Of a stretch of DNA of 64,000 nt, positions 22,554-50,409 are shown piece after piece. The stretch comes from Astropecten irregularis (lineage: Eukaryota; Echinodermata; Asteroidea; Paxillosida; Astropectinidae), in the NCBI GenBank assembly GCA_963971285.1, contig OZ020255.1, forward strand, positions 4,278,001 through 4,342,000. Direction: 5' to 3'. The notes below the pieces were generated by a model. The model did not search any database. It was given only the letters and a program-made list of their open reading frames with translations, and was not told where the DNA came from. The position numbers and the translations under genes are program-made. Within the stretch, counting starts at the first letter, position 1, and every line of letters begins with the position of its first letter.

Positions 22554-22691
22554 CATTTCGCGTACTTCGTGCATTGGAAATAAAAAAAAGGAATTGCTAC
22601 AGTACAATCCTTCAATAAACTGACAAAGATTTTACTGACAAAGTGTTATATAATTGTATAATATTCCGTGAAGCAATCACGACATTTGATA

Positions 22692-23185: not shown

Positions 23186-23544
23186 TGAAAATTAATGTCA
23201 GGAGGAACAGTTGTTTTTTTATAACTCTGTTAAATTTTCTAATCACAGATTTTTCAAGTTACGGCGCACACCTAAATGATTTAAAAACAAATTAAATAAT
23301 TAATTTGACGTTTTATTTTATTTTGTCTGTCTTTCTGGTGGTCGGGCGTGCTGTGTATAGACACAGCCCGTTATGCACGCAGTAAAAGTATCAAAGATGG
23401 CCGTTATCGATCCATCCCATGGAAACAAAGCTATACATGTACGTACCTGAAAGAGTGAAAGCTGCATCCTTTAATTTCCACATTGAAATCTGCAAATTTT
23501 CACAGTTTTATTTCAATTTCCTTGAATTTATGCCGATTCCATGT
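23186..23544. other. No gene seen; SINE-Gypsy interval
   Basis: AT-rich interval, including GTATAGACACAGCCCG next to GGGCGTGCTGT. Equivalent to 13641-13985. Confidence 0.5.
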
Positions 23545-23957
23545 TGGTCGTAGTCGTCCTTAGGTCGTCGGTAGGCATCCCTCTGGGCCGGCTGCATTGA
23601 GGCGCCGATAGTCAACGCAGAACCGAACACTTCCCGCCTTTCTTCCAGACCAATACAATTGGTGACGCCCACGGTCCTGATGATGGCCTAATGATTCTTT
23701 TTTCGAGCATCGACTGGATCTCCTTCTCAGCTACAGCCCTTTGCTGAATTGGCAAGCGCCGAACAGCCTGGTTGCTTAATTGGAGCAGCACTCTCCGTTT
23801 CAATCCGGTGTTTGGCCAGTTGTGTGCACCCCAAGTCTCCCTTGCTGGACGAGAACTGATGCTGATACCGGATCAACAGATCTCTAAACTGACATTGTTC
23901 TCCTTCGTCCAGGTCACCAGAGCCCCTTTGGTACATGTCCTCTAAATGTGATGGCAC
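23545..23957 (-). pseudogene. Gypsy reverse-transcriptase N-terminal fragment (copy b)
   Basis: The linker ([33 protein letters not shown]) and the first RT motif ([20 protein letters not shown]) are typical of Ty3/Gypsy pol. The catalytic YxDD region is not present. A frame change near 23800 separates linker and RT. Confidence 0.75.
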
Positions 23958-23968
23958 TGCAATACACC

Positions 23969-24119
23969 TGTAGTGTATTTGTGGGTTAATTAGTTATTTG
24001 ACGGAAACAACGTGTTTAACCAAGAGCTGCCATATTGAAAGGTGGTTTATTTTATATCACAACCGCATAAGGCATATGCGTAATAGTGCGCATGCGTATT
24101 GGTAGCACAGTACATTACA
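23969..24119 (-). mobile_element. 151-bp solo LTR with 5-bp target duplication
   Basis: The termini are TGTAGTG ... CATTACA. Flanking ACACC occurs at 23964-23968 and again at 24120-24124. The unoccupied site reads GAGACACCACTTCAC in copy c (33545-33559). On the minus strand it contains ATATAAAATAAACC (TATA and polyadenylation-like). It belongs to a different family from the LTR at 27538. A TG...CA form with a 5-bp duplication fits Ty3/Gypsy. Confidence 0.8.
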
Positions 24120-24675
24120 ACACCCCTACCCATGGCTATCACTACTGTCCTCCGAAGTGACTAGATTTACATATTCCATCACCTCTGACCAGGGTGGCAT
24201 GGTCACTGGTCAGGTTCAGCAGTCTTACTGGTACCGTCTTGTCAATCGTGCTCACTAGTGATGAGGCTACCGTGAGGCTATTCCTCTGTGTCGACTTGAA
24301 TGTCGGCTTAATTATCCCATATGCTACACAAATGTCACTTTCCCCTAGGCTTCCGGCTACGATCATTTCTGTCTATGGTGGGTCAACAACTGTTTCCTTA
24401 ACAGTTACGCGGCAGCAACGCGGCTGCTGCGCTGTATCCCTCAGGGGGTATCACGGTCCCTTCCCACTCCAGATTCTTCACGTCAATTACGCAACTCTGT
24501 GATCACAGGAAATCTAGCCATAAAAGAACATCATTGCTAATGTCAGCCAATGATAAACGTAAATACCACTTGTTTGCCTCCCATCTGGAGGTCGGCAGTC
24601 ACTTCTCCGATGACGGTCAAATGATTATCATCAGCGAGACGAACTTGAACGTTCGTACCTGCTATGCCAGTCCTG

Positions 24676-24861
24676 TCATCTGTAGACCATCTGCACGACT
24701 CGGTCAGACACAATTAATGCTATCGCTCCAGTGTCAATCAATGCCACCACATCTACACCATTGACGACGGCATCCATCATGTGTAGTCCTTTACCAACAA
24801 CAGTCACATTCATGGTTTTTAAACTTGTCATTGGCCCCTCTGGTCTTGTCTTGGGCCTCAC
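24676..24861 (-). pseudogene. Gypsy protease fragment (copy b)
   Basis: DVVALIDTGAIALIVSDRVV contains the DTG active site. The residues after DTG differ from copy a (AIAL versus AAAS). It is frame-broken downstream. Confidence 0.75.
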
Positions 24862-24870
24862 ACTCGACTT

Positions 24871-26648
24871 CTAACAGTTTCCCGGTTTCTTATTGAAGTT
24901 TGTCGGCGACTGAGTAACTACTGGCGCTGCCTCACTACTTGTGTTTCCGGTAAGCTGGGGGCAATTCGGCTTTATATGTCCGTATTTTTGACAATTGCAG
25001 CACTGGAGGTTCTTCCCGTCTGGCTGTCGACCTTTCCCTTTGTAGCGGCGATTCATTGCTTTCTGGAGTTTCTGCAGCTGGCTAGACATCGCCCATATCT
25101 GTTGGGTTCCGACTGGGCACTGGCGCTGCAAACTTTTGTTGGCTCTGGTGCGGAACGTGCCTTTTCAGCTTTTTGTAAGGCCTCCAGCTCCACTGCTCCG
25201 GCAACGGCGTCGTCTAGAGTCGTAGTTTGCATTTGGATAACGCGTATTCTTATTTCGCCGTCTGTCAAGGCATCCAGAAAATGGTCTCTGGCCATGCGGT
25301 CTGGACTGTCTGACGAAAGATCCACATAAACCTTATCCACTAGTCGTATTATATCCTTGCCAAATTCTACTACGCTCTCTGTAGTCATTTGTCTACGGCT
25401 CCTCAGTTGAGCTCTGAGTAGTTCCAGTCTTCCCGTTGGGTCAAAACGTGCCTGCAGGGCCTTTACCAGTTGTTGGTAGTCTTTTGTCGTTTCCGTCGGG
25501 AGACTGCCTAAAATGTGTTGAGCGACACCGGTTAATAACACGGCTAGGTATTGCAGCTTATCCTGCTCCTTCCAGCCGTTCAATTCTGCACAAAGTTCGA
25601 AGTGCTTGTGATAAGCAGTCCAGGATGTCTTTCTGTCGTAACGGTCGGGTTTCACAAGAGGTCTCTCTCTTGCTCGAGGAACACCTCTCGGATCGTTTGG
25701 ATTTCCCTCAAGCCTTGTGGCAGGCTCAGTTGTACTTCGCACCAATGCTGGATCAATTGAAACAGTGGTTTCACCGCCTGGTCTCATCGGTGTCCTGGTA
25801 TGGATCCCTGATAATACCTGTGGGACACCTAGTGAAGGTACCTGGCAGTGGGTGGATTCTTGGTTGCAGGCAGAATGCACTTCTGAGCCTCGGCTAGGCT
25901 CTCCGTTTACACGCTCCTTCGAAAACCACCGAGCTGCACCGGGATTACTATCTCCATGTATTACAGACCTACTGGCCCCAGGCCGCGAATCGCGTGAAAA
26001 CTGCGGTCGCCACATGGTTCTACACTCCGGCCGCTGCGGTATGTTGCTGGTTCAGTCAAAGGAAAGTTGCAAACCCGGTCCGTCTTGTCGTGTGGCGCAA
26101 AGTGTACCCTGATGGTAGGCTCATTGACAGTATAGGAACGGGGCGTCGACTCATGTCTACCAGCTATGTCCATTTCAGCCGACCTATTACTAGACGAGTG
26201 GTTGAGTCCGGCAGGTTGTACACCAGGGGTTCTGTGTACCATTGGCTCGAAACCAAATTGTTGACAGACGGTTTACAGCTAATTCATCATCGGGATAACT
26301 ACGGTAGGGAAGATGTCCGACGCTGTCTGCTGACTGGAATAAGAGTGAATCTCCATTCCTGTCTGGTGTACCCTGTATTTCGTAGGTGTCCTGCCAGTTC
26401 ACTGTCCTTGGTCGTGCTGACTCCGTCAGGCTATTCGGCTCTACGCACCTTGGTACACTGCGGGTATTTAAAGGTGGGTGTGTGTCACCAGTATGGTTTA
26501 AAGCAATCTGACTCTCGATGCTCCTTGACATGACTTCTATTTCCCTGGTTACTTCCTCAAGTTCCCTAGTCAAACGTTCATAAAGATCACGGTTGCTAGC
26601 TAGGGTATTGTAGGGGGCACTAACGTTATCTCCGGTAGCATAATCCAT
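24871..26648 (-). pseudogene. Gypsy gag (copy b), nearly complete but frame-broken
   Basis: Start ATG at 26646-26648. The N-terminal segment (LYERLTRELEEVTREIEVMS) is probably coiled coil. It is followed by a Pro/Arg-rich region, the capsid-like core within 25053-26015 (KTSWTAYHKHFELCAELNGW, LQARFDPTGRLELLRAQL, VVEFGKDIIRLVDK) and a CCHC knuckle (CCNCQKYGHIKPNC) ahead of the protease. Three frame changes are needed to read the whole, so it is dead. Confidence 0.78.
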
Positions 26649-26784
26649 CTTGGGTTTCTGGCTGGTATTCTCGCAAACCGGTCTGCTATGGAATATTCTG
26701 GCTCTCTGAGCGACTGTGAAATCTCCGGCCGGTTACTCAGCACTCCGAGCGGCTCTAGAATTGCCGGGTATAGTATTCTGGCTA

Positions 26785-27312
26785 TCCGGGCGGTTCTGTA
26801 CTCTCCGGCCGGTGTCTCGCTAGTACAGGCGTCTCTGTACTCTCCGGTCGGTGTCTCGCCAGTCCAAGCGCCTCTGTACTCTCCGGCCGGTGTCTCCCTA
26901 TTCCGGGCGGCTCTGTACTCTCCGGTTGGTGTCTCGCCAGTCCGGGCGGCTCTGTACTCTCCGGCCGGTGTCTCACTAGTCCGGGCGGCTCTGTACTCTC
27001 CGGTCAGTGTCTCACTAGTCCGGGCGGCTCTGTACTCTGCAGTCGGTGTCTCACTAGTCCGGGCGGCTCTGTACTCTCCGGCCGGTGTCTCACTAGTCCG
27101 GGCGGCTCTGTACTCTCCGGTCGGTGTCTCACTAGTCCGGGCGGCTCTGTACTCTGCAGTCGGTGTCTCACTAGTCCGGGCGGCTCTGTACTCTCCGGCC
27201 GGTGTCTCACTAGTTCGGCCGGCTCTGTACTCTGCGGCCGGTGTCTCACTAGTCCGGGCGGCTCTGTACTCTCCGGTCAGTGTCTCGCTAGTCCGAGTGG
27301 CTATGGACTCTC
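26785..27312. repeat. Short 39-bp minisatellite, leader of Gypsy copy b (about 13 units)
   Basis: Same placement and variants as 16786-17312. On the minus strand one frame reads through all units as a 13-residue repeat (SETPTGEYRAART type) and ends at 26600, overlapping the gag start, so it could act as an upstream reading frame. No evidence of translation. Confidence 0.93.
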
Positions 27313-27537
27313 CGGACAGTGCCATACGCGCGTATACACGGCCGTCTAACGGCCGGAGCAACCAGGAACGGTTAACACGGCTAGCATTATGACACCAACC
27401 CTACGTCAATAAATACATTAATTGTCCGATTCCGTAAGTGCTAACGGCTCGGTTGTCACCACTGCCGACCTGAAATTTTTGTATTTAGCATGGAGCAAAA
27501 ATAAAACACAGAATTCAAATCCCAACGTTGTCACCAA

Positions 27538-27776
27538 TGTAACGCAACTGGGCGATCTACGGACTTTTTCTGGCTTGCGTCGATGGCTTAATGCTCGGAC
27601 AAGAATTACCGATGGAACAGGTTAATTAATAAGTGTAGAACACTCAACGGACATGGCAACAATTAGGAGGATCACTGATGAATAAGGAACAATGGGTGGA
27701 AACTAAATATACCGTCTTGGTACTCTCTGCCCATTTATTCTGATAAGGATGATTCGACAATGATCATTTATTTACA
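27538..27776 (-). repeat. LTR of Gypsy copy b (239 bp)
   Basis: Near-identical to 17535-17772: TGTAACGC ... TTTACA, with TTGGTGACAACGTTGGGATT just inside on the minus strand. Confidence 0.5.
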
Positions 27777-28013
27777 GTGTGATTTGAAGAAGTAGGCCTA
27801 TATAGATGCTGTTCCCACGGTGCCTGGCCCAAGTCTGACACATGAAACCAGTGCGCGCCTACTCGCCTAGCGCACCCCAGACTCAACGATAGGCCGGAAA
27901 CCCAACCTAAAACAAGTTCACGCTCGTCCGCTCCGAGTTCGTGACGTTTGTCACAATATGATGTCAGTCGCTTTTTCCCCTTGTTTTGCATTTCGAGAGC
28001 AAACGCCGTTTAA

Positions 28014-32154: not shown

Positions 32155-32292
32155 CATTTCGCGTACTTCGTGCATTGGAAATAAAAAAAAGGAATTGCTA
32201 CAGTACAATCCTTCAATAAACTGACAAAGATTTTACTGACAAAGTGTTATATAATTGTATAATATGCCGTGAAGCAATCACGACATTTGATA

Positions 32293-32785
32293 TGGCCGAG
32301 TGGTTAGGGAATGGGGCTTTGAATTACCTGTCCCGGGTTCGAGCCCTGTGCGGTTTCGGTGATTTTGTTTTGAATGTTTTTCACCTGTTAATTGTCTGGT
32401 ATAAATGGTTTTAGAAACTGCCTGGATGTCACCAAAGCTTGTGGCTCGGTTGGATAAGCGATGGTACCACCGCTCAGACTTTCGGCAGTCTGGGTTCGAT
32501 TCTCCGATCCTGACTCTCTGATAATGAATGGAACATGGCATGTGCGGACCCTGGCACCGCGATGGTCCAGGGGCCGCCTTGTTTCTCCCTCTTAGTCCTT
32601 CAGAGCTTTGCATGTCAGGCTAAGGTCTCAATGGTGGGGAGGATATGCAGTAGTCGGCTTGCCAGTAAGCCACATGGGTACTATATGGGAGCCGGTAAGC
32701 CGGGTGAAAGAATCCCGGTGAGTCGCGTGCCCCTGAACACCTGGCGGTCTGCTTAACTCTTGCTTTTTTTCTTTTTTTTTGAAAA
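32293..32785 (+). mobile_element. SINE with two tRNA-like heads, copy 3
   Basis: Both A/B box pairs are intact. A deletion of GATCGA after the second head distinguishes this copy and the one at 60840. Confidence 0.8.
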
Positions 32786-33124
32786 TTAATGTCAGGAGGA
32801 ACAGTTGTTTTTTTTATAACTCTGTTAAATTTTCTAATCAGAGATTTTTGAAGTTACGGCGCACACCTAAATGATTTAAAAACAAATTAAATAATTAATT
32901 TGACATTTTATTTTATTTTGTCTGTCTGTCTGGTGGTCGGGCGGGCTGTGTATAGACACAGCCCGTTATGCACGCAGTAAAAGTATCAAAGATGTCCGTT
33001 ATCGATCCATCCCATGGAAACAAAGCTATACATGTACGTATACCTGAAAGAGTAAAAGCTGCATCCTTTAATTTCCACACGGAAATCTGCAAACTTTCAC
33101 AGTTTTATTACAATTTCCTTGAAT

Positions 33125-33609
33125 TTACGCCGATTTCATGTTGGTCGTAGTCGTCCTTAGGTCGTCGGTACTACTGGTTACTGCATTGAGGCGCCGATAG
33201 TCAACGCAGAACCCAACACTCCCGTCTTTCTTCCGGACCAATACAATTGGTGACGCCCACGGTCCTGATGATGGCCTAATGATTCCTTTTTCGAGCATCG
33301 ACTGGATCTCCTTCTCAGCTACAGCCCTTTGCCGAATTGGCAAGCGCCGAACAGGTTGCTTAATTGGAGCAGCACTCCCCGTTTCAATCCGGTGTTTGGC
33401 CAGTTGTGTGCACCCAAGTCTCCCTTGCTGGACGAGAACTGATGCTGATACCGGATCAACAGATCTCTAAACTGACATTTTTCTCCTTCGTCCAGGTCAC
33501 CAGAGCCCCTTTGGTACATGTGCTCTAAATGTGCTGGCACTGCGAGACACCACTTCACATGGCTATCCCTACTGTCCTCTGAAGTGACTAGATTTACATG
33601 TTCTATCAC
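33125..33609 (-). pseudogene. Gypsy RT N-terminal fragment (copy c)
   Basis: Linker (VPAHLEHMYQRGSGDLDEGE) and RT motifs ([33 protein letters not shown]), then unrelated sequence. The catalytic aspartates are missing. One frame change near 33340. Confidence 0.75.
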
Positions 33610-33971
33610 CTCTGTTTTGCTGTCAGGTCCCGTGTCGAGGGTGGGCCCGATAGCATCTACCGCTTGGAACGTTCCTACTGTCGTACCTTTGTAGAGGCCG
33701 TGACATGGTCACTGGTCAGATTCAGCAGTCTTACTGGTACCGTCTTGTCAATCGTGCTCACTAGTGATGAGGCTACCGTGAGGCTATTCTTCTATGTCGA
33801 CTTGAATGTCGGCTCAATTACCCCATATGCTAGACAATGTCACTCCCCCCCCCCCCCTATAGGCTTCCGTCTACGATCATCCTCGTCGACACAATCGAAA
33901 ACCCCTTAATAATGTCAGCCACGATAAACGTATGTGCCACTTCAGTTTGCCTCCCAGCTGGAGGTCGGCAG

Positions 33972-34126
33972 CAGTAGTGTAGACACGTCCTCAGACCTGG
34001 GGGGTTGATCGTGTACCTGGGTCGTATTTCCATATACGTTTGTGCACAAAATCATTGTTTATATATACAAAAAGTGAAAACCTGGGGGGTTACAACCCCC
34101 CTAGCCCCCCCGGGATCTACTCCCAT
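33972..34126. mobile_element. 155-bp insertion with 9-bp direct repeats
   Basis: GGTCGGCAG at 33963-33971 is repeated at 34127-34135. Copies a and b have a single uninterrupted GGTCGGCAG-like site. The insert contains ACCTGGGGGGTT near both ends and a C-rich tail. Type unknown. It is duplicated at 62520-62673. Confidence 0.7.
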
Positions 34127-34144
34127 GGTCGGCAGTCACTTCTC

Positions 34145-34320
34145 CGATGACAGTCAATGATTATCATCAGCGAGACGAACTTGAACGTTCGTACCTGCTA
34201 TGCCAGCCCTGTCATCTGTATACCATTTCTGCATGACTCGGTCAGACACAATTGATGCTGTTGCTCCAGTGTCAATCAATGCCACCACATCTACACCATT
34301 GACTACGGCATCCATGTGTA
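34145..34320 (-). pseudogene. Gypsy protease fragment (copy c)
   Basis: The DTG active-site region is recognisable on the minus strand (the DTGA codons lie near 34270). It is fused on its upstream side to gag N-terminal sequence by deletion of the capsid and knuckle. Confidence 0.65.
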
Positions 34321-34457
34321 GTCTCTCTCTCTTGCTCGAGGAACACCTCTCGGATCGTTTGGATTTCCCTCAAGCCTTATGGCAGGCTCAGTTGTACTTC
34401 GCACCAATGATGGATCAATCGAAACAGTTGTTTCATCGCCTGGTCTCCCCTGTGTCC

Positions 34458-34606
34458 AGGGCTGGATTTCACAAAGCACTAAGATTAATCTTAAGATGAG
34501 TCGTTCAGTATCACAATAGTAATTGTATTGTGACATCACATGTTGTTTAGCAATTAAGATGAATTCACACTTAAGATCAATCTTAGTGCTTTGTGAAATC
34601 GGCCCC
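34458..34606. mobile_element. MITE of about 149 bp with long TIRs
   Basis: The termini AGGGCTGGATTTCACAAAGC and the inverted GCTTTGTGAAATCGGCCCCT extend about 37 bp each with few mismatches. The unoccupied site GTGTCC|TGGTATGG is seen in copy b (25790-25803). No coding content. It is duplicated at 63005-63153. Confidence 0.85.
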
Positions 34607-35130
34607 TGGTATGGATCCCTGGTAATACCTGTGAAAATCCTAGTGAAGGTACCTGGCAGTGGGTGGGTATTACAGGCCTACGAATCACTGTGAAAACTTG
34701 GGTCGCCACATGGTTCTACACTCCGGCCACTGCGATATGTTGCTGGTTCAGTCAAAGGAAAATTGCAAACTCGATCCGTCTTGTTGTGTGGCGCAAAGTG
34801 TACCCTGATGGTAGGCTCAATGACAGTATAGGAACAGGGCGTCGACTCATGTCTACCGGCCATGTCCATTTCAGCCGGCCTATTACTAGACGAGCGGTAG
34901 AGCCCGACCGGTTGTACATCAGGGATTCTGTGTACCATTGGCTCGAAACCAGGAAGGTGTACCTTGTCTTTCGTAGGTGTCCTGCCAGTTCACTGTCATT
35001 GGTCGTGGCTATTCGGCTCTACGTACCTTGGTACACTGCGGGTATTTAAGGGTGGTTGTGTCACCAGTACGGTTTGAAGGAGCTTGGGCTTTTACTCACC
35101 TATGGGTTTCTGGCTGGTATTCTCGCAAAC
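34607..35130 (-). pseudogene. Gypsy gag N-terminal remnants (copy c)
   Basis: Pieces of the Pro/Arg-rich gag region (RSSSNRPAEMDMAGRHESTP, SYTVIEPTIRVHFAPHNKTD) are separated by small deletions; the N-terminal coiled coil and ATG are gone. A further gag piece (TEPAIRLEGNPNDPRGVPRA) lies left of the MITE at 34330-34457. Confidence 0.65.
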
Positions 35131-35240
35131 CGGGCTGCTATGGAATATTCTGGCTCTCTGAGCGACTGCGGAATCTCCAGCCGGTGGCTCAGCACTCCGA
35201 GCGGCTCTAGAATTGCTGGGTAGTATTCTGGCTCTCCTGA

Positions 35241-38200
35241 CGGCTCTTTACTCTCCGGTTGGTGTCTCACCAGTCCAGGCGGCTCTGTACTCTCGGGTTG
35301 GTGTCTCACTATAGTCTGGGCGGCTCTGTACTCTCCAGTCGGTGTCTCACTAGTCCGGGCGGCTCTGTACTCTCGGGTTGGTGTCTCACTAGTCCGGGCG
35401 GCTCTGTACTCTCCGGTCGGTGTCTCACTAGTCTGGGCGGCTCTGTACTCTCCGGTCGGTGTCTCACTAGTCCGGGCGGCTCTGTACTCTCCGGTCGGTG
35501 TCTCGCTAGTCCAGGCTGCTCTGTACTCTCCGGTCGGTGTCTCGCTAGTCTGGGCTGCTCTGTACTCTCCGGTCTGTGTCTCACTAGTCCGGGCGGCTCT
35601 GTACTCTCGGGTTGGTGTCTCACTAGTCCGGGTGGCTCTGTACTCTCCGGTCGGTTTTCCTCGCCAGTACAGGCGGCTCTGTACTCTCCGGTCGGTTTTC
35701 CTCGCCAGTACAGGCGGCTCTGTACTCTCCGGTCGGTGTCTCACCAGTCCAGGCGGCTCTGTACTCTCGGGTTGGTGTCTCACTATAGTCTGGGCGGCTC
35801 TGTACTCTCCAGTCGGTGTCTCACTAGTCCGGGCGGCTCTGTACTCTCGGGTTGGTGTCTCACTAGTCCGGGCGGATCTGTACTCTCCGGTCGGTGTCTC
35901 ACTAGTCTGGGCGGCTCTGTACTCTCCGGTCGGTGTCTCACTAGTCCGGGCGGCTCTGTACTCTCCGGTCGGTGTCTCGCTAGTCCAGGCTGCTCTGTAC
36001 TCTCCGGTCGGTGTCTCGCTAGTCTGGGCTGCTCTGTACTCTCCGGTCTGTGTCTCACTAGTCCGGGTGGCTCTGTACTCTCGGGTTGGTGTCTCACTAG
36101 TCCGGGTGGCTCTGTACTCTCTGGTTGGTGTCTCACTAGTCCGAGTGGCTCTGTACTCTCCGGTCGGTTCTCACTAATCCGGATGGCTCTGTACTCTCCG
36201 GTCGGTGTCTCACTAGTCCGGGCGGCTTTGTACTCTCCGGTCGGTGTCTCGCTAGTCCAGGCTGCTCTGTACTCTCCGGTCGGTGTCTCACTAGTCTGGG
36301 CTGCTCTGTACTCTCCGGTCTGTGTCTCACTAGTCCGGGCGGCTCTGTACTCTCCGGTCGGTGTCTCACTAGTCTGGGCTGCTCTGTACTCTCCAGTCTG
36401 TGTCTCACTAGTCTGGGCTGCTCTGTACTCTCCGGTCTGTGTCTCACTAGTCCGGGCGGCTCTGTACTCTCGGGTTGGTGTCTCACTAGTCGAGGCGGCT
36501 CTGTACTCTCCGGTCGGTGTCTCACTAGTCTGGGCGGCTCTGTACTCTCCAGTCCATGTCTCACTAATCCGGGTGGCTCTGTACTCTCCGGTCGGTTCTT
36601 ACGAATCCGGGTGGCTCTGTACTCTCCGGTCGGTGTCTCACTAGTCCGAGTGGCTCTGTACTCTTCGGTCGGTTCTCACTAATCAGGGTGGGTCTGTATT
36701 CTCCAGTCGGTTCTCAAATATCTGGGTGGGTCTGTACTCTCGGGTTGGTTCTCACTAATCCGGGCGGCTCTGTACTCTTCGGTCGGTGTCTCACTAGTCC
36801 GTGTGGCTCTGTACTCTCCGGTCGGTGTCTCACTAGTCCGGGCGTCTCTGTACTCTCCAGTCGGTGTTTCACTAGTCCGGGCGGCTCTTTACTCTCCGGT
36901 CAGTGTCTCAATAGTCCGAGTGGCTCTGTACTTTCCGGTCGGTTCTCACTAATCCGAATGGCTCTGTACTCTCTGGTTGGTCCTCACTAGTCCGGGCGTC
37001 TCTGTACTCTCCAGTCGGTGTTTCACTAGTCCGGGTGGCTCTGTGCTCTCCGGTCGTAGTCTCACTAGTCCGGGTGGCTCTGTACTCTCTGGTTGGTGTC
37101 TCACTAGTCCGAGTGGCTCTGTACTCTCGGGTCGGTTCTCACTAATCCGGATGGCTCTGTACTCTCTGGTTGGTCCTCACTAGTCCGGGCGTCTCTGTAC
37201 TCTCCAGTCGGTGTTTCACTAGTCCGAGTGGCTCTGTGCTCTCCGGTCGGTGTCTCACTAGTCCGGGTGGCTCTGTACTCTCTGGTTGGTGTTTCACTAG
37301 TCCGGGCGGCTCTGTACTCTCCAGTCGGTGTCTCACTTATCCGGGTGGCTCTGTACTCTCCGGTCGTAGTCTCACTAGTCCGGGCGGCTCTGTACTCTCC
37401 AGTCGGTGTCTCACTAGTCCGGGTGGCTCTGTACTCTCTGGTTGGTGTCTCACAAATCCGAGTGGCTCTGTACTCTCCGGTTGGTTCTCACTAATCCGGA
37501 TGGCTCTGTACTCTCCGGTCGGTTCTCACTAGTCCGGGCGGCTCTGTACTCTCCGGTCGGTGTCTCACTAGTCCGAGTGGCTCTGTACTCTCCAGTCGGT
37601 TCTCACTAATCCGGATGGCTCTGTACTCTCCGGTCGGTTCTCACTAGTCCGGCCGGCTCTGTACTCTCCTGTCAGTGTCTCACTAGTCCGAGTGGCTCTG
37701 TACTCTCCGGTCGGTTCTCACTAATCTGGGTTGGTCTGTATTCTCCGGTCGGTTCTCACTAATCCGGGTGGGTCTGTATTCTCCGGTTGGTTTTCACTAG
37801 TCCAGGTGGGTCTGTATTCTCCGGTCGGTTCTCACTTATCAGGGTGGGTCTGTATTCTCCGGTCGGTTCTCACTAATCAGGGTGGGTCTGTACTCTCCGG
37901 TTGGTTCTCACTAATCCGGGTGGCTCTGTACTCTCTGGTTGGTGTCTCACTAGTCCGAGTGGCTCTGTACTCTCTGGTCGGTTCTCACTAATCCGGATGG
38001 CTCTGTACTCTCCGGTCGGTTCTCACTAGTCCGGGCGGCTCTGTACTCTCTGGTTGGTGTCTCACTAGTCCGAGTGGCTCTGTACTCTCCGGTCGGTTCT
38101 CACTAATCCGGATGGCTCTGTACTCTCCGGTCGGTTCTCACTAATCCGGGCGTCTCTGTACTCTCCAGTCGGTGTTTTACTAGTCCGAGTGGCTCTATGC

Positions 38201-40468
38201 TCTCCGGTCGGTGTCTCACTAGTCCGGGCGGCTCTGTACTCTCCAGTCGATGTCTCACTAATCCGGGTGGCTCTGTACTCTCCGGTCGTAGTCTCACTAG
38301 TCCGGGCGGCTCTGTACTCTCCAGTCGGTGTCTCACTAGTCCGGGTGGCTCTGTACTCTCTGGTTGGTGTCTTACTAGTCCGAGTGGCTCTGTACTCTCC
38401 GGTCGGTTCTCACTAATCCGGATGGCTCTGTACTCTCCGGTCGGTTCTCACTAGTCCGGGCGGCTCTGTACTCTCCGGTCGGTGTCTCACTAGTCCGAGT
38501 GGCTCTGTACTCTCCAGTCGGTTCTCACTAATCCGGATGGCTCTGTACTCTCCGGTCGGTTCTCACTAGTCCGGGCGGCTCTGTACTCTCTGGTCGGTGT
38601 CTCACTAGTCCGAGTGGCTCTGTACTCTCCGGTCGGTTCTCACTAGTCCGGGCGGCTCTGTACTCTCCGGTCGGTTCTCACTAGTCCGAGTGGCTCTGTA
38701 CTCTCCGGTCGGTTCTCACTAATCCGGGTTGGACTGTATTCTCCGGTCGGTTCTCACTAATCCGGATGGATCTGTATTCTCCGGTTGGTTTTCACTAGTC
38801 CGGGTGGGTCTGTATTCTCCGGTCGGTTCTCACTAATCAGGGTGGGTCTGTATTCTCCGGTCGGTTCTCACTAATCCGGGCGGCTCTGTACTCTCGGTTT
38901 TGTGTCTCACTGGTCCGCGTGGGTCTGTACTCTCCGGTCGGTGTCTCACTAGTTCGAGCGGCTCTGTACTCTCCGGTCGGTGTCTCACTAGTCCGGGCGG
39001 CTCTGTACTCTCCAGTCGGTGTCTCACTAATCCGGGTGGCTCTGTACTCTCCGGTCGTAGTCTCACTAGTCCGGGCGGCTCTGTACTCTCCAGTCGGTGT
39101 CTCACTAGTCCGGGTGGCTCTGTACTCTCTGGTTGGTGTCTCACAAGTCCGAGTGGCTCTGTACTCTCCGGTTGTTTCTCACTAATCCGGATGGCTCTGT
39201 ACTCTCCGGTCGGTTCTCACTAGTCCGGGCGGCTCTGTACTCTCCGGTCGGTGTCTCACTAGTCCGAGTGGCTCTGTACTCTCCGGTCGGTTCTCACTAA
39301 TCCGGATGGCTCTGTACTCTCCGGTCGGTTCTCACTAGTCCGGGCGGCTCTGTACTCTCCGGTCAGTGTCTCACTAGTCCGAGTGGCTCTGTACTCTCCG
39401 GTCGGTTCTCACTAATCTTGGTTGGTCTGTATTCTCCGGTCGGTTCTCACTAATCCGGGTGGGTCTGTATTCTCCGGTTGGTTTTCACTAGTCCGGGTGG
39501 GTCTGTATTCTCCGGTCGGTTCTCACTTATCAGGGTGGGTCTGTATTCTCCGGTCGGTTCTCACTAATCAGGGTGGGTCTGTACTCTCCGGTTGGTTCTC
39601 ACTAATCCGGGTGGCTCTGTACTCTCTGGTTGGTGTCTCACTAGTCCGAGTGGCTCTGTACTCTCCGGTCGGTTCTCACTAATCCGGATGGCTCTGTACT
39701 CTCCGGTCGGTTCTCACTAGTCCGGGCGGCTCTGTACTCTCTGGTTGGTGTCTCACTAGTCCGAGTGGCTCTGTACTCTCCGGTCGGTTCTCACTAATCC
39801 GGATGGCTCTGTACTCTCCGGTCGGTTCTCACTAATCCGGATGGCTCTGTACTCTCTGGTTGGTCCTCACTAGTCCAGGCGTCTCTGTACTCTCCAGTCG
39901 GTGTTTCACTAGTCCGAGTGGCTCTATGCTCTCCGGTCGGTGTCTCACTAGTCCGGGCGGCTCTGTACTCTCCAGTCGATGTCTCACTAATCCGGGTGGC
40001 TCTGTACTCTCCGGTCGTAGTCTCACTAGTCCGGGCGGCTCTGTACTCTCCAGTCGGTGTCTCACTAGTCCGGGTGGCTCTGTACTCTCTGGTTGGTGTC
40101 TTACTAGTCCGAGTGGCTCTGTACTCTCCGGTCGGTTCTCACTAATCCGGATGGCTCTGTACTCTCCGGTCGGTTCTCACTAGTCCGGGCGGCTCTGTAC
40201 TCTCCGGTCGGTGTCTCACTAGTCCGAGTGGCTCTGTACTCTCCGGTCGGTTCTCACTAATCCGGATGGCTCTGTACTCTCCGGTCGGTTCTCACTAGTC
40301 CGGGCGGCTCTGTACTCTCCGGTCGGTGTCTCACTAGTCCGAGTGGCTCTGTACTCTCCGGTCGGTTCTCACTAGTCCGGGCGGCTCTGTACTCTCCGGT
40401 CAGTGTCTCACTAGTCCGAGTGGCTCTGTACTCTCCAGCCGGTGTGACACCGGCTGGAGAGTACAGAG
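35241..40468. repeat. Giant 38/39-bp minisatellite, array 2 (complete)
   Basis: About 135 units, bounded on the left by the gag-side flank (GGCTCTAGAATTGCTGGGTAG) and on the right by the LTR-side flank. It has the same variant order as array 1 over most of its length, including the doubled CCTCGCCAGTACAGGCGG unit and the 41-bp CACTATAGTCTGGG unit. The latter occurs twice, 478 bp apart. Open frames up to 461 codons are by-products of the 39-bp period. Confidence 0.95.
40424..40468. repeat. Perfect 45-bp palindromic cap of array 2
   Basis: CTCTGTACTCTCCAGCCGG-TGTGACA-CCGGCTGGAGAGTACAGAG: 22-bp arms around a single G. Here the one mismatch of the array 1 cap is absent. Confidence 0.92.
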
Positions 40469-40775
40469 GGCGGTGTCTGAATTAGTCCGAGCGGCTATGG
40501 AATCTCCGGACAGTACCAGACGCACGTATACACGGTCGTCTAACGGCCGGAGCAACCAGGAACCCAAATAAACCGGTCGACCTACAAGAGCACAATTTTC
40601 CCTTTGGCTATGTCTCGGTTTACACCACTGGCATTATGCCACCAACCCTATACGTCAATAAATAAGTAATTTGTCCTATTCCGTAAATGCTAAAGGCTCG
40701 GTTGTCACCACTGCCGAACTAAAATTCTTGGAGCAACAATAAAACACCGAATTCAAATCCCAACACTGTCACAAA

Positions 40776-40917
40776 TGTAACGCAATTGGGCGATCTACGG
40801 ACTTTTCTGGCTGGCGTCGATGGCTTGCTCGGACAAGAATTACCGATGGAACAGGTTAATTAATAACTGTAGAACACTAAACGGACATGGCAACAATTAA
40901 GAGGATCACCGATGAAT
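40776..40917 (-). repeat. Partial LTR with variant U3 (copy c)
   Basis: Matches 6339-6480. Beyond 40917 it follows the same alternative sequence as 6481 onward. Confidence 0.45.
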
Positions 40918-43256: not shown

Positions 43257-44387
43257 ATGGAAATGAATGAATCTGGATCGCCCCAATCCACTACGACTTG
43301 GTTTGTGATGGGGAACTCCACATTGCAGCCTGATGGAGAGACCGCACACTTATCTCTACACTCCTACGAAGAGCGAGTAGTAGTAGGTTGCTTGATCCTT
43401 GTCATTGCATTGACCAACATCATCGGTAATGGTACTGTTATCCTGGCTGTGTTATTCAGCAAGAAGCTATGGACATCAACTAATGCCTTCGTTGTTAGTC
43501 TTTGTGTAGCAGATCTCTCAGCTGGAGTAGCAGCTCATCTGAGCATCATTGGGCTTCTCAGTCCAGGAGATAGCTGGCCATGGTCCACAGAGGTTCCTTG
43601 TACTATTGCTGGCCTTGTACTTTTCATCAACTCTTCCGCTAGTCTTTTCAACCTGGTCTCTATTGCTCTGAACAGACTGGTCCTCATCAAGTATCCCATG
43701 ACACTGTACCGAAGACTTTATACAAATCGAAATATAATCATCAATCTTGTTGCTCTGTGGATCGCCGCTATTGCTGTCATGTCTCTACCACCCATATTTG
43801 GCATTGGGGGTTTCGGTTATGACAAGCAGCATCACACATGTAGTGACCTGGACACCCACCCTAAGGCCAAGACATTTGAGAAGATTCAAACATTTGTTTG
43901 CTTTCCTGTCTCATTGGTCGTCATCATTACCAGCTATATCTTGATCTTTCTTCACGTCCGGCGACACTTCATGAAAAAGAGGGCAAATTTAGCTGTCAGT
44001 GGAAATATTGATCTAGAGAGCCGTATTTCTGGGACGACTTACTCCACCTCCGAAGTGTCTGATAACTCTGCTGTATTGAGAACCACTCAGCAAGATCGCA
44101 TCAACCGCCAACAAATTGAGATCACCAAGAACCTCTTCATAGCCGTGTGTGCATTCTTTGTCTGTATTACACCATACTGCATTGCCTTGTTCATTCCTAA
44201 CAACGACCGACTCTTGCTATTTCTGGCTGTGCTCTTCTTTGCTAACAGTGCCGTTAATCCTATCATCTATGGCGCCAAACACCCACATTTTAAAAAAGTC
44301 ATGCGTCTCATTTTAAGATGCAAGTATTCTCAAATTGATGAACCGACAAGTTTGTTGAAAGCTCTTATTGGTGGTCGTGGTAGGTAG
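43257..44387 (+). CDS. Class A (rhodopsin-like) G-protein-coupled receptor, copy 2
   Basis: 376 residues, full length and intact, with the same seven-helix layout and motifs as the copy at 8819 (N58, D86, C115/C195, N139-R140-L141, C303-I-T-P306, NPIIY). I count five base differences from copy 1. Three change residues: L267V and A276T in the third intracellular loop, and G308C two residues after the TM6 proline. Two are silent (N139, L311). Both copies appear functional at sequence level. The TM6 change lies near the ligand pocket and could alter signalling, which is inference. The extreme similarity means either recent duplication, gene conversion or two haplotypes assembled in tandem. Confidence 0.93.
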   Translation: MEMNESGSPQSTTTWFVMGNSTLQPDGETAHLSLHSYEERVVVGCLILVIALTNIIGNGTVILAVLFSKKLWTSTNAFVVSLCVADLSAGVAAHLSIIGLLSPGDSWPWSTEVPCTIAGLVLFINSSASLFNLVSIALNRLVLIKYPMTLYRRLYTNRNIIINLVALWIAAIAVMSLPPIFGIGGFGYDKQHHTCSDLDTHPKAKTFEKIQTFVCFPVSLVVIITSYILIFLHVRRHFMKKRANLAVSGNIDLESRISGTTYSTSEVSDNSAVLRTTQQDRINRQQIEITKNLFIAVCAFFVCITPYCIALFIPNNDRLLLFLAVLFFANSAVNPIIYGAKHPHFKKVMRLILRCKYSQIDEPTSLLKALIGGRGR

Positions 44388-46123
44388 GCCGATAAAGCAG
44401 AAAGGGAATTCTTCCTCGATACCAATATCAGTGTTCCTTGTCCTGATGTTACAGAATATTCGGCGCTTTTCAGTCAGTAAATAATTCAGCTCAATTTCGT
44501 TATCATTCAGAATGTTTTAATCCGAATTTAGAAATGTATGGTATTGTATCTTTGGTGAAGTACATTGTTATACGCAGAAAAATGTAAGCATTTCAATACG
44601 TATTAGACATGTTTATCATAATTACGGTGTTTTTGATTCTTTATAAATACACAGGAAAACTAGTTTTGTGTTAATTAAACATAAAAAAGATATTGCCAAT
44701 ATTGTACTTGAGCATAACGATTGCAAGGGTGACTTGGAATCCATAAACCTGTGGGAAATGAAGACATTTTTTCGGCATGTAATGAAAGCGTTGTTTTGGG
44801 TTAATATTTATTGATGTTTGTACCCAATGAAGCAATACTTGATACATCACAGCAGCTAGCTCACTTTCCAATCGATAAATACTGAACTACCTGATATTAT
44901 GTTTTGGTGATTGAACTTTCTGTTTGTATTCTAAGAATTACGTTGTTTGTGCCGTTTTTCATTGTTAAGGAATCAGTTAGTTTCTTTTCTGTCTTGTATG
45001 ATGGGGTCCTACCAGGGTGATAAACCCGGATACAGGATCTGACGTGAGTGTAAAGGTTTGGTTGATTCAGAACCAGCCAAGGGAAACGTCCACGCGTATT
45101 CAAGTGCGCTTTTCAGACGTCCAAAAATAAATCACATTCTATGAAAACTATTCAGAGTATTTTAACGCATTCTTACAGTATATATAACGATTGATATATT
45201 GTGTTGGTATGTTATAGTTGGTTCTTTGTAATGAACATTTATTGCTGTCTCCATAGTAGAACCGTTTCACTAGGCTTATGCTCAATAATCGGACAAGTTA
45301 TCGGACATTGTAAAGGAATATAGAATCGGTAGCCATACTATAATGCACTCGTGATTGCACATGCTAATAATGAACAGAATGTGTACACCATTATTATTGT
45401 AAAAAAAAACGGCATGGCAATATTCAATATTCAATTCAATTAGTTTGTGTAAATTAATTTAAGTGTAAATAGTTTGCGTGTATATCATATTTTTGTATAA
45501 TCATATTATTCTAAAAAAATACTTTAATTGAAACGGCATAGAAATATTGAATTTAAGTTTGTGTAAATAAAAATATGAACAATATTCTTCTTATCGTTTC
45601 CAATTATTTATTTTCATTCATGAAGAAAGGTATAAAAGATCAAAAGCTTATTGCATGGGATTTCAATTGACTGTTTCTTATCGTTTTCTCTGGTCCAGGC
45701 CTAGATTCCAAATTCAGTCAAACACAGACAGAAACTCAAGCAAGACAAAAGCAGTGTTCACTGTCAACAATATCGGTAATATTTTCGGTAACATTTTCAG
45801 TAACTTATGTTAAGTTAATAGGACAACAACCCAACATTGTTAAAGCAGTTTGTGCCAAAAACTGTGTACGTATTAAAAGTACTACCCGCGCCCTCTGTTG
45901 ACCATACGTATTAAAGTTCTTTGCGTGCATTAGCTCAAACTGCATATTAACCCCCAAATCGCGCCGTATGTAACAAATGACATCGTTTATGACGTGAGCC
46001 ATGAATTAGTCTATTTATGAAATATTACGTGACGTACAATCCTTCAATAAACTGACAAAGATCTATTTAGGTGTTATATAATTGTATAATATTCCATGAC
46101 GCCTTCAGTCACTACATTTCATA
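44388..46123. other. GPCR 3' flank and intergenic DNA (U2), no gene seen
   Basis: Equivalent to 9950-13157 without the 1463-bp TTAA element; the empty site TTGA is at 44708-44711. AT-rich, no supported coding content. Confidence 0.6.
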
Positions 46124-46606
46124 TGGCCGAGTGGTTAGGGAATGGGGCTTTGAATTACCTGTCCCGGGTTCGAGCCCTGTGTGGTTTCGGTGATTTTGTT
46201 TTGAATGTTTTTCACCTATCAATTGTCTGGTATAAATGGTTTTAGAAACTGCCTGGATGCCACCAAAGCTTGTGGCTCGGTTGGATAAGCGATGGTACCA
46301 CCGCCCAGACTTCGGTAGCCTGGGTTCGATTCCCGATCCTGATCGACTCTCTGATAATGAATGGAACATGGCATTTGCGGACCCTGGCACCGCGATGGTC
46401 CAGGGGCCGCCTTGTTTCTCCCTCTTAGTCCTTCAGAGCTTTGCATGTCAGGCTAAGGTCTCAATGGTGGGGAGGATATGCAGTAGTCGGCTTGCCAGTA
46501 AGCCACATGGGTACTATATGGGAGCCGGTAAGCCGGGTGAAAGAATCCCGGTGAATCGCGTGCCCCTGAACACCTGGCGGTCTGCTTAACTCTTGCTTTT
46601 TTTTGA
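46124..46606 (+). mobile_element. SINE with two tRNA-like heads, copy 4
   Basis: Duplicate of 13158-13640. Confidence 0.8.
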
Positions 46607-47444
46607 AAATTAATGTCAGGAGGAACAGTTTTTTTATAACTCTGTTAAATTTTCTACTCAGAGATTTTCAAGTTACGGCGCACACCTCAATGATTTAAAA
46701 ACAAATTAAATAATTAATTTGACATTTTATTTTATTTTGTCTGTCTGTCTGGTGGTCGGGCGGGCTGTGTATAGACACATCCCGTTGTGCATGCAGTATA
46801 AAACGTATCGTGTCCGTTATCGATCCATCCAATGGAAGCAAAGCTATACATGTACGTGCATGTAAGAGTGAAAGCTGCATTCTTAAATTTTTACACGTAA
46901 ATCTGCAAATATTCACAGTTTTATTACAATTTCCTTGAATTTACGCCGATTCATTACAACACCTCTTTACATGGCTATCTCTACTGTCCTCTGAAGTGAC
47001 TAGATTTACATGTTCTATCATGACCTCTGTTTTGCTGTCAGGTCCAATGTCGAGGATGGGCCCAATAGCATCTACCGCAGTGGAACGTTCCTGCTGTCGT
47101 AAATTTGTAGAGGGTGACATGATCACTAGTCAGGTTCAGCAGTCTTACTGGTACCGTCTTGTCATTCGTGCTCACTAATGATGAGGCTACCATGAGGCTA
47201 TTCCTCTATGTCGACTTGAATGTCGGCTCAATTACCCCATATGCTACACAAATGTCACTTTCCCCTAGGCTTCCGGCTACGATAATTTCTGTCTGTGGTG
47301 GGGCAACAACTGTTTCCCTAACAATACGAGGCAGCACCGCGGATGCTCCGCTGTATCCCTCAGGGATATCCCGGTCCCTCCCCACTCCAGATTCCTCTTG
47401 TTCAAGTCAATTACGCAATTCTGTGATCGCAGGAAGTCTAGCCC

Positions 47445-47651
47445 TTAACTAATGGCAGCCAATGATGTGCCACCTGTTTGCCTCCCAGCTGGAGGTCGGC
47501 ATTCACTTCTCCGATGACGGTCAAAATTATCATCAGCGAGACGAACTTGAACGTTCGTACCTGCTATGCCAGTCCTGTCATCTGTAGACCATTTCTGTAC
47601 CACTCGGTCAGACACAATTGATGCTGCCGCTCCAGTGTCAATCAATGCCAC
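47445..47651 (-). pseudogene. Gypsy protease fragment (copy d)
   Basis: Same residues as copy a (ALIDTGAAASIVSD). Confidence 0.72.
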
Positions 47652-47851
47652 AACATCTACTTCATTGACTATACGGCATCCATGTGTAGTCCTTCACCAA
47701 CAACAGTCACACTCCTGGTTTGTAAATTTGCTATTGGCCCCTCTGGTTTAGCTGAGTCTTGGGCCTCACACTCAGCTTCTAACAGTTTTCCGGTTTCTTG
47801 TTGAAGTTAGTCGGCGACTGAGTAACTGGCACTGCCTCACTACTTGTGTTT

Positions 47852-48204
47852 CCGTTAAGCTGAGGGCAATTCGGCTTTATATGTCCGTATTCTTGACAAT
47901 TGTAGCACTGGGGGTTCTACCCGTCTGGCCGTCGACCTTTCCCTTTGTGGCGGCGATTCATTGCTTTCTGGAGTTTCTGCAGCTGGTCAGACATTGCTTG
48001 CAACTGGCTTTGCAACTCGGTTTTCACCGGTTGATCAACCATATCTGGTTTGGGTTCCGACTTGACACTGGCGCTGCGAACTTTCTTTGGCTCTGGTGCG
48101 GTACGTGCCTTTTCAGCTTTTTGTAAGGCCTCCTTCTCCACTGATCCGGCAACGGCGTCGTCTAGAGTTGTAGTTTGGATTGTTTGGTACGCGTATTCTT
48201 TCTT
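47852..48204 (-). pseudogene. Gypsy gag C-terminal part (copy d), left of the insertion
   Basis: Linker and CCHC knuckle of gag, cut at 48204 by the YR element. The rest resumes at 53190. Confidence 0.72.
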
Positions 48205-48348
48205 TTCTTCCTCCATGCTTCCGTAAGAAAATAATTTTCTTTTCTAAATCTCCCTCATGTTAAAAAAAATGCAACATGTTGAAAGAAATACACAGATGTA
48301 CACGAAATTGAGCACAATGGTCATGGCGGAGCTGCTCGCCTCGCCTAT
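48205..48348. repeat. Split direct repeat A1
   Basis: TTCTTCCTCCATGCTTCC ... CTCGCCTCGCCTAT. Matches A2 except for a two-base difference in an A run. Confidence 0.9.
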
Positions 48349-48436
48349 TTAATCATATCACTATCGCCGTCAAATTGGCGAAGTTTCCCGGAAGCGGGCA
48401 AAAATCAAATCAAAAATCAAGATAGCATATTTCACA

Positions 48437-49558
48437 TTAAATCCCTAGAGCCGTTGAGGTTAGTAAGGAGGTTTGTTTATCAGTTTTGATGTAACAGTTC
48501 CTGGACTTGTCGGATTTCCATCTGCCGTGCATTGATATGAGATGCGAAGGGATATGAGCGTTGGAGGCGGCGGAGGCGCCTCCGGATCTGAGGCTGTGGA
48601 GGCCGAATCTGCGAATGTCAGGTACAAAGGGACGCAAGGCTTGCAGTACTATCTCTCTTGTTCTTGTGTAGCTGAGCTTGTGGGTTGTGGGGATGAGACC
48701 GCCTCTGGAGCGGGTCAACCGGCGAAGAACAGGTAGTGGGGAAGTGTCGGGGTCGCCGAGAGCTTGGAAGTATCGTTCGGTGATCAGTACCGGACAAGTT
48801 TGCTTAAATGTTTTGCCGATGGTAATATGGTTGCCTTGACGGAGTTGATCGGTCTTGGATTTGGTCAAGTGTATAACGAGCCTGTCGCTGTACAGGGCAC
48901 AGTCCATGCGGCGAACGTTGTTAATGTCGCTGAATCGCATGAAACCGGCGTAGCAAATGAAGCACACGAATAAGACGCGTAGATCATCTAAATCTGCCTT
49001 GGGATGCCCGTGAGCATTGTAAAGTTTGGCCATGATGTCTGGAGTTACCGGTTCTCTTCGAAGGGGCGTTGATGCTGTGCACCTCCTATAGCCTTGTAAG
49101 GCAGTTTTTACCAGAGGGTCGTCGGTGGGCGAAGGCAAGCCGGCCAAGTCGTGCGCCCACTTAGCTGCGGCTGCGGCGGAGTCGGCTGCTGATTTGTGTC
49201 CAGTGGAATAAAGTGAAGCCAGGTAGAGGGCGAAGTGTGTGGGCTTGACTGGAAAAGTGCTGACGTCGGTCTTGGATGATGCCCAGGACTCCCATCTCCT
49301 CCAAGTGGCGCTGTATTTGGCTGTTGTGGAGTCGGCCTTCGCTGAAGTCAGAAGCTTGGGTAAGGTTCCAAGGGCGAGTCTCCGAAGCTCCGGGTCGGTG
49401 ACGGAGTGAGAGAGCGCCAGCCATCTATCTGAAAAAATGCAACATAAAAACACAGCGACAAAATGTGCTGATACGTATGGCACGAAGGCAAAGATAATGC
49501 ATAAACTGCAACAAAGAGTGGTACCGAGACCACTGGAATCATGATACAGGAATCCCAA
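48437..49558 (-). CDS. Tyrosine recombinase (integrase) of the YR retrotransposon
   Basis: Open for 373 codons. All catalytic residues of a phage-type tyrosine recombinase are visible: R208 (YAGFMRFSDI), K235 region (TKSKTD), H321 and R324 (HSLRSGG), H344/W347 (MHGRW) and Y356 (NCYI). The N-terminal core-binding region starts about residue 55 (DPELRRLALGTL). Residues 1-43 are hydrophobic and unlike the family. The bases just before residue 44 read TTTTTTCAG on the minus strand (AG at 49429-49430), so the coding exon probably begins at 49428 after an intron. The enzyme would integrate a circular cDNA by strand exchange without a target duplication. It lies between A1 and B1, apart from gag-RT. 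Confidence 0.88.
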   Translation of the reverse strand: MGFLYHDSSGLGTTLCCSLCIIFAFVPYVSAHFVAVFLCCIFSDRWLALSHSVTDPELRRLALGTLPKLLTSAKADSTTAKYSATWRRWESWASSKTDVSTFPVKPTHFALYLASLYSTGHKSAADSAAAAAKWAHDLAGLPSPTDDPLVKTALQGYRRCTASTPLRREPVTPDIMAKLYNAHGHPKADLDDLRVLFVCFICYAGFMRFSDINNVRRMDCALYSDRLVIHLTKSKTDQLRQGNHITIGKTFKQTCPVLITERYFQALGDPDTSPLPVLRRLTRSRGGLIPTTHKLSYTRTREIVLQALRPFVPDIRRFGLHSLRSGGASAASNAHIPSHLISMHGRWKSDKSRNCYIKTDKQTSLLTSTALGI

Positions 49559-49637
49559 AAATGCAAGGAAAGTAGTGCTCAGAAAGACAAGAAAAAATAA
49601 ATAAAAAATAAATAAATAAAGCTATATGCCTGAGCAG

Positions 49638-49853
49638 TTATGAGAGTTCTAAGACTCGCGGCAACTTCTGGGGAAGAGGGCAGTGTACTACGCTTGCTTG
49701 GCGCCCATCGTCAGTCTGACGAGCTAGGTCAGCACTCGGTGGCCACGTAAAACCCCCAACTTGTGGAGGAACCGTGGACGCGACCAGGACGATGGACGTA
49801 GGTCGCGCACCTTGCTCCAAGCAAGTATTAAAGTACAAAGAAAGAAAACTCAT
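49638..49853 (-). other. Possible upstream exon of the YR gene
   Basis: A 71-codon open stretch upstream of the candidate acceptor at 49430. If YR is spliced, an upstream exon is expected here or across B1/A2. The residues show no recognisable domain. Speculative. Confidence 0.2.
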
Positions 49854-49899
49854 AAAGAGTTGGAGTGCATACGGCTTGAATGGGAGGGAGGGTTTTGGG

Positions 49900-50191
49900 G
49901 TAGCGAGGTTAAGCTGCTCTACCGAGAATGCACTGGCGCAGGGCGGTGCCCCTATTTAAAGGAACGATTAGGAATGAGTTACGTAATAGACGCGCTCTGA
50001 AAAGCGCGCCGCACCTGTCGTGCGATAACGAAAAGAAAAATAACTTTCTTCCTCCATGCTTCCGTAAGAAAATAATTTTCTTTTCTAAATCTCCCTCATG
50101 TTAAAAAAAAAATGCAACATGTTGAAAGAAATACACAGATGTACACGAAATTGAGCACAATGGTCATGGCGGAGCTGCTCGCCTCGCCTAT
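49900..50191. repeat. Internal B1-A2 junction of split direct repeats
   Basis: B1 (49900-50045, GTAGCGAGG ... AAATAACT) abuts A2 (50046-50191, TTCTTCC ...) with no spacer. The sequence across 50045/50046 equals what end-to-end joining of the element (53189 to 48205) would give. Confidence 0.9.
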
Positions 50192-50409
50192 GACCTAGAG
50201 GACGCAAAAGAAAGGGACAAGGAAAGTCTGAAAAGACTAAAGCAATTCTGCTCAAAGGTTATAAACAACCAAAGTCTACATTGACTCGACTCAGCTCGAT
50301 GGCTATAAACAACCATTCAAAAATGCTGCAAATCAGCGGTGGCTCGAAGGCCAGCAGTGCATGAACGCACTATCCAAGAATGATGACATTCCGAAAAGGA
50401 AATTTACCG
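50192..50409. other. Non-coding spacer between A2 and RNase H gene
   Basis: No motif recognised. Two TATAAACAACCA words lie at about 50260 and 50300. Confidence 0.4.

Follow-up and report, generated by a model that had tools for sequence, protein, structure and literature searches.

The array-bearing element described here is very probably a decayed family of Ty3/Gypsy LTR retrotransposons, in which a 39-bp tandem repeat is a standing part of the 5' leader and the growth of arrays took place on the chromosome afterwards. The window, i.e., the whole stretch of 64 kb that was analyzed, corresponds to C19:4278001-4342000 of the 475.7-Mb assembly. In the window, TRF identified six 39-bp arrays, of which A1, A2, and A3 denote those of the giant lineage and S1, S2, and S3 denote the short ones (Table 1).

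Table 1. Features of the array-bearing copies. Positions are those of the window unless a contig is given.
Feature	Position	Strand	Remarks
A1 giant 39-bp leader array	1-6031	-	Cut by window edge; TRF 4-5999
A1 full array	C19:4276167-4284031	-	7.87 kb, ~203 units
A1 leader	6073-6126 and 6179-6338	-	Sequence comparison of copies
A1 5' LTR, inner part	6339-6480	-	Outer side truncated
S1 start-of-RT remnant and gag/pol remnant	13993-16648	-	N-terminal end of gag near 16648
S1 short leader array	16785-17317	-	TRF, 13.6 units
S1 rest of leader	17318-17534	-	PBS-like stretch 17511-17533 adjoining LTR
S1 5' LTR	17535-17951	-	TG...CA, 417 bp
S2 copy	22602-27955	-	Shared block, start-of-RT piece, gag, array, leader, LTR
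S2 array	26785-27315	-	TRF
S2 LTR	27538-27955	-	Copy comparison
SINE-like block (named from its look)	32203-33139	.	Joined to truncated start of RT
A2 start-of-RT piece and decayed gag	33140-35233	-	gag with internal deletions
A2 giant leader array	35242-40468	-	~135 units; TRF 35242-40445; inverted-unit hairpin at right end
A2 leader and inner 5' LTR	40510-40917	-	LTR part 40776-40917
S3 copy	46034-55902	-	gag split by DIRS-like element 48204-53189
S3 array	54736-55276	-	TRF
S3 LTR	55486-55902	-	Copy comparison
A3 copy	60750-64000	-	Block, start-of-RT piece, decayed gag, array start (TRF 63787-64000); array ends outside window, 2.26 kb and ~58 units in full

Structure of the element

On the minus strand, the S1 copy consists of the LTR, a PBS-like stretch, a leader of ~160 bp, a 54-bp piece, the array, ~137 bp, and gag. 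All five arrays that end inside the window have the 54-bp leader piece, the PBS-like stretch, and the LTR on their right, and the LTR start, TGTAACGC, is at 6339, 17535, 27538, 40776, and 55486. The gag, also on the minus strand, is on the left of the array wherever the window includes the left side. The first-pass annotation had described the same arrangement for 5/5 arrays, which our comparison confirmed. With gag on the left and the leader, PBS-like stretch, and LTR on the right, the element must run on the minus strand, which places the array between the PBS and the start of gag, i.e., in the 5' leader.

The S2 gag matched Retrotrans_gag of Pfam (E 5.9e-08). As protein, the start-of-RT piece of the window matched 0 Pfam families; its DNA matched at 90.5% the stretch at and just before the RVT_1 domain of the copy on C18, and the piece was therefore named the start of RT. 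The window copies retained gag and the start of RT, most of pol being gone, and only 5' LTRs, with no 3' LTR, were found within the 64 kb. The LTRs have TG...CA ends and are 414-423 bp long when measured end to end in S1, S2, S3, C20, and the 3' LTR of C18; LTR lengths of ~140 or ~500 bp were dropped on comparison of the copies. The LTRs of the giant arrays lack the outer side and are truncated at 40917 (A2) and 6480 (A1). At S1 and C20, the conserved PBS-like stretch starts with TGG one base inside the 5' LTR, and we take it to resemble the 3' end of tRNA-Leu.

A protein-coding role of the array was unsupported, as the giant and several dispersed copies contain units of 38, 40, 41, 43, or 46 bp that disrupt the frame. 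Stops were present in all three sense frames of 8/14 array copies. S1, S2, S3, C20, C18, and C12:3.92M each had one stop-free sense frame, as would be expected in any case from a unit of 39 bp in which one frame has stops. Strong RNA structure of the short array was also unsupported (z -1.44; 11/100 shuffles folded at least as well). No Rfam family matched the window when gathering thresholds were applied, and neither a relative of the gag nor an exact match of the array was found in viral contigs.

The copy on C18 (C18:15323720-15331938, 8.2 kb) is a bona fide Ty3/Gypsy insertion. It possesses LTR remains at both ends, an array of six units, and the 54-bp piece, and is flanked on both sides by GTAT, a 4-bp target-site duplication. 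Its 3' LTR (15323720-15324133) is directly preceded by a PPT-like AAAGGAGGGGGTAA; the outer part of its 5' LTR survives and ends at 15331938, and the PBS and the inner 5' LTR are deleted. Separate open pieces follow the Gypsy order gag-PR-RT-RH-IN, with the Pfam domains Retrotrans_gag (E 0.0029; 18.2 bits, below the cut-off of 24.1), Asp_protease_2 (24.6 bits, cut-off 24.3), RVT_1, RT_RNaseH, and rve. Two LTRs are also present at C12:3.92M, the second of which is cut by the end of the stretch examined. Over their partial overlaps, the paired LTRs were identical at 181/185 (C18), 188/192 (C12:3.92M), and 149/156 (C12:6.65M) positions.

Distribution of the array in the genome

Two array queries of the assembly yielded 461 and 178 matches, and 20 candidate places were scored for each, a scope in which element-free arrays elsewhere could be missed. 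Among the matches listed, the array was present at at least eight loci, C19 included; the seven loci outside the C19 cluster are on contigs C1, C9, C12 (two), C18, C20, and C30. The element leader or LTR adjoined the array at 8/8 loci, with gag on the other side at 7/8; when the piece immediately upstream of gag is counted as well, the other side belonged to the element at 8/8. These results support the earlier proposal that the array belongs to the element. Moreover, a genome search for element-free 39-bp arrays had been named beforehand as the refuting test, and none was found among the matches listed of the two queries.

The query with the LTR and leader identified 26 places (26/26 candidates scored), 15 of which included part of the leader. 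Nine of these are on C19, and the other six are at C20, C30, C12:3.92M, C1:11.16M, C12:6.65M, and C9. The array was beside the leader at 14 of these 15 places, the sole exception being a fragment at C19:4353289-4353550 next to inverted RT and gag pieces. Three of the 11 places with only an LTR are the 3' LTRs of C18, C12:6.65M, and C12:3.92M, and the array-adjacency counts leave out the other eight. The gag query yielded 29 matches at eight loci (18 candidates), of which seven carry the array; C1 is counted among them as one copy split by ~30 kb, with gag at 11.13M and the leader at 11.16M. The eighth gag locus, C1:10.11M, breaks off within gag, and the 2 kb examined there contain no leader. 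In addition, the CTCCGGACAGT of the closing unit was exact in 13/15 array copies, with one mismatch at C12:6.65M and two at C19:4.2587M, the latter of which is also without the 54-bp piece.

The insertion of ~30 kb splits the gag of the C1 copy and leaves a gap from C1:11132576 to 11162819. Its edge (C1:11132401-11134400) contains an AT-rich stretch and an open frame of 249 aa, for which no Pfam match passed a cut-off. The insert is possibly a large virus-like or Polinton-like element.

Six dispersed copies have a short array: C30, C1, C9, C18, C12:3.92M, and C20. The first units of C30, C1, and C18 are in the common order of 36, 41, 46, 39, and 39 bp, the first unit of C18 being one base short in the slice used. 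In C9, the 36- and 41-bp units are likewise present and the later units are similar, but the 46-bp unit is not in third place. Counted by length, the arrays comprise ~9 units at C30 and C1, 6 at C18, 8-9 at C9, and 2.8 at C12:3.92M. Regular 39-mers dominate at C20 (17.8 units), S1-S3 (~14 units), C19:4.2587M (16.7 units, several of them short), and C19:4.268M (34.4 units).

Given its position at the seven loci outside C19 and the unit order in C18, C30, C1, and partly C9, the short array was spread by the element. From the unit comparison, an ordered, irregular short array of ~6-9 units is likely the ancestral leader, and this size is more likely than the starting size of ~13 units proposed earlier. 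The leader role and the short-to-long direction proposed at the same time are supported by the dispersed insertions, which are short and several of which share the same ordered units, and by the restriction of long arrays, among the loci found, to the C19 cluster, C12:6.65M, and, mildly, C20.

Segmental duplication on C19

Self-comparison revealed that the window is a nested segmental duplication. Because the flanks are shared by segmental duplication, the arrays fall into two lineages, one giant and one short, and are not five independent insertions. The identities between the right sides of A1 and A2 were 99.0-99.8% over 6032-16700, two insertions excepted. Among the right flanks of S1, S2, and S3, the identities were 98.5-99.1% close to the element, falling to 96-97% at greater distance; those between the left sides of A2 and A3 were 98.5-98.7%. 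In A2, the SINE-like block is joined to the truncated start of RT at 33139/33140. This junction is also present in A1, S2, A3, C19:4251729, and C19:4348680, suggesting that all six are duplicates of a single truncated insertion. It is shown neither by S1 and S3, in which that stretch is lost, nor by the copy at C19:4264829; all C19 copies, these three included, are presumably of common descent.

As few events gave rise to the copies in it, the window taken alone provides little independent evidence for the tie between array and element. Thus, the placement on which the first-pass annotation relied was correctly seen in the window, but the copies are duplicates of each other within each lineage, with flanks 98.5-99.8% identical near the element. 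Similarly, its claim that two copies had expanded holds in that the expansion is real; however, one expanded lineage was segmentally duplicated, and separate growth occurred elsewhere. The array at 1-6031, which it had listed as a complete giant, is indeed giant but is the part of A1 left by the window edge.

The S2 copy looks mosaic. Its block and RT piece are 97.0 and 93.0% identical, respectively, to those of A2, its gag is ~88-89% identical to that of S1, and its right part (137-bp piece, leader, and LTR) is 94-99% identical to that of S1. These identities suggest exchange between copies.

Growth of the long arrays

Among the loci found, long arrays are confined to the duplicated C19 cluster, C12:6.65M, and, mildly, C20, where homogenized growth reached 14 to ~203, ~160 (in six blocks), and ~18 units, respectively. 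The giants A1, A2, and A3 are mixes of 39- and 38-bp units and comprise ~203, ~135, and ~58 units, respectively, counts that depend on correct assembly of near-identical repeats. Their flanks are 98.5-99.8% identical, yet their unit numbers differ ~3.5-fold. Units 3-28 of A1 matched units 2-27 of A2 at 1018/1021 positions, and units 12-51 of A2 matched units 16-55 of A3 at 1540/1555. Within A1, units 5-66 recur as units 67-128 with 2402/2404 positions identical, a block duplication of 62 units (2,404 bp). At the right end, units 162-202 of A1 aligned with units 98-135 of A2 at 1347/1456 positions with 124 gap columns; because other registers match there, the unit order is reshuffled toward that end. 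The first-unit variant common to most other copies is absent from the A lineage. As the differing lengths of sister duplicates and the 62-unit block duplication show, the arrays grew and shrank by duplication and deletion of blocks of units, and their growth was largely in situ.

At the right ends of A1, A2, and A3, an inverted unit fragment forms a hairpin (~40424-40468 in A2), whose arms are perfect in A2 and have one mismatch in A1. Its presence in all three suggests that the hairpin is older than the duplication of the giants. An organization of the giant arrays into three-unit higher-order repeats from end to end was rejected: TRF lists a 115-bp period, but the mean identities at lag 3 vs. 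lag 1 were 0.873 vs. 0.873 for A1, 0.885 vs. 0.879 for A2, and 0.850 vs. 0.864 for A3.

At C12:6.65M (C12:6645351-6660374), two LTRs bound six array blocks and duplicated spacers with ~160 units in total. Blocks of array and non-array spacer are tandemly duplicated at 98-99% identity, with a period of 1,659 bp at 98%. No gag-pol was found in this copy, and no target-site duplication was seen by eye. Its outer flanks, also by eye, look like inverted repeats of each other.

Discussion

The results very probably reflect a history in which the element carried a short array, of ~6-9 ordered units in its fuller form, to scattered sites. In this history, a truncated copy on C19 joined a tandem segmental duplication spanning ~100 kb, and regular 39-bp units were amplified on C19 (14-203 units) and separately in the LTR-bounded copy on C12 (~160 units). 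On the chromosome, the arrays grew and shrank by duplication and deletion of unit blocks, for which unequal exchange (or replication slippage) is the likely cause, and the segmental duplication then multiplied the giant array.

Other origins of the array were considered. Chance copying of a host minisatellite together with a nearby Gypsy remnant in the segmental duplication would account for the flanks that all copies within the window share through that duplication, but is contradicted by the seven loci beyond the C19 cluster, where the array occupies the same place in the element and one of which is flanked by a target-site duplication, and can hardly be credited. It is very improbable that the satellite came first, that is, that an existing satellite was captured by the leader and that long arrays are ancestral. 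There are long arrays, and these, the giants excepted, show greater regularity than the short arrays of dispersed copies; however, the two array queries gave no element-free array among the matches listed, the same irregular units in the same order are retained by several dispersed copies, and long arrays are bounded by the same closing unit.

The growth itself could also be read differently. If template switching in the leader had expanded the array during reverse transcription, long arrays would have been inserted ready-made, and independent insertions do vary from ~2.8 to 17.8 units (C19 and C12:6.65M left out). The ~3.5-fold spread of length among sister segmental duplicates, the recent block duplication within A1, and the tandem duplication of array and non-array spacer on C12 at 98-99% identity argue against this explanation, which we regard as improbable, and small unit differences between insertions could have arisen in this way. 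That the giant arrays are partly assembly artefacts is suggested by the near-identical 2.4-kb block duplication in A1 (2402/2404) and is quite improbable, as A1, A2, and A3 are distinct when compared unit for unit, their locations on the contig are separate, and growth took place separately on C12. Growth on the chromosome from a short leader array is thus the preferred reading.

The closest precedent is the plant retrotransposon Ogre (Ty3/Gypsy, Tat lineage), some of whose 3'UTR tandem repeats expand to satellites in Lathyrus sativus and pea (PMC7004042; PMC9659126). As far as the cited accounts go, the two are similar in that an LTR element of the Gypsy class carries a short array in a non-coding region and disperses it, with long arrays forming at some places only; for Ogre, the accounts also include complex arrays in which element sequence is interlaced. 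Different from Ogre, whose array is downstream of gag-pol and in plants, the array in this study is in the 5' leader between the PBS and gag and in an animal. Moreover, Ogre repeats are described as expanding mainly in primary constrictions, whereas expansion here was in a segmental duplication and one C12 copy. Similarly, the foldback transposon Tetris of Drosophila virilis gave rise to a satellite (PMC4079207). From that account, Tetris also provides an animal case in which sequence inside a mobile element forms the building blocks of satellite DNA, but it is a DNA transposon and not the leader of an LTR element.

In Drosophila gypsy, the insulator consists of 12 sites clustered within 340 bp of the 5'UTR (PMC2374998). 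Going by that description, the array resembles the insulator in position. The gypsy insulator cluster is not known to grow to hundreds of units. For the leader repeat, a regulatory role like that of the gypsy insulator, by analogy, or no role would seem likeliest. It is unlikely that the leader minisatellite is a functional conserved module, either insulator-like or for packaging or translation, whose instability seeds arrays and helps drive the GPCR-bearing duplication on C19.

Among the open-licence papers listed, we found no report of an animal Gypsy 5' leader array growing to satellite size and none combining "upstream of gag," tandem repeats, and retrotransposon. The family described here provides a case from an animal in which satellite-like DNA grew, in a direction that can be read, from a tandem repeat that is a regular part of the 5' leader of an LTR retrotransposon, and in which a mobile element can both plant and grow such DNA. 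As unit numbers vary ~3.5-fold among duplicates with flanks 98.5-99.8% identical, direct measurement should be feasible both for the rate of change and for the size of its steps, which are blocks of up to 62 repeats.

Other features of the window

The duplicated flank on the right of the giant arrays contains two open frames of 376 aa, 8819-9946 and 43257-44384, the first of which matched class A GPCRs (Pfam 7tm_1, E 3.3e-38). The element at 48204-53189, inserted in the S3 gag, has one piece that matched RVT_1 (52.3 bits), whereas phage integrase, Dam methyltransferase, and zinc knuckle scored below the Pfam cut-offs; we take it to be a DIRS-like retroelement. An insertion of 1.46 kb at 10275-11734 is present beside A1 and absent beside A2. 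It has terminal inverted repeats next to TTAA, is presumably piggyBac-like, and carries a 19-bp minisatellite of its own with ~15 copies at 11055-11338.
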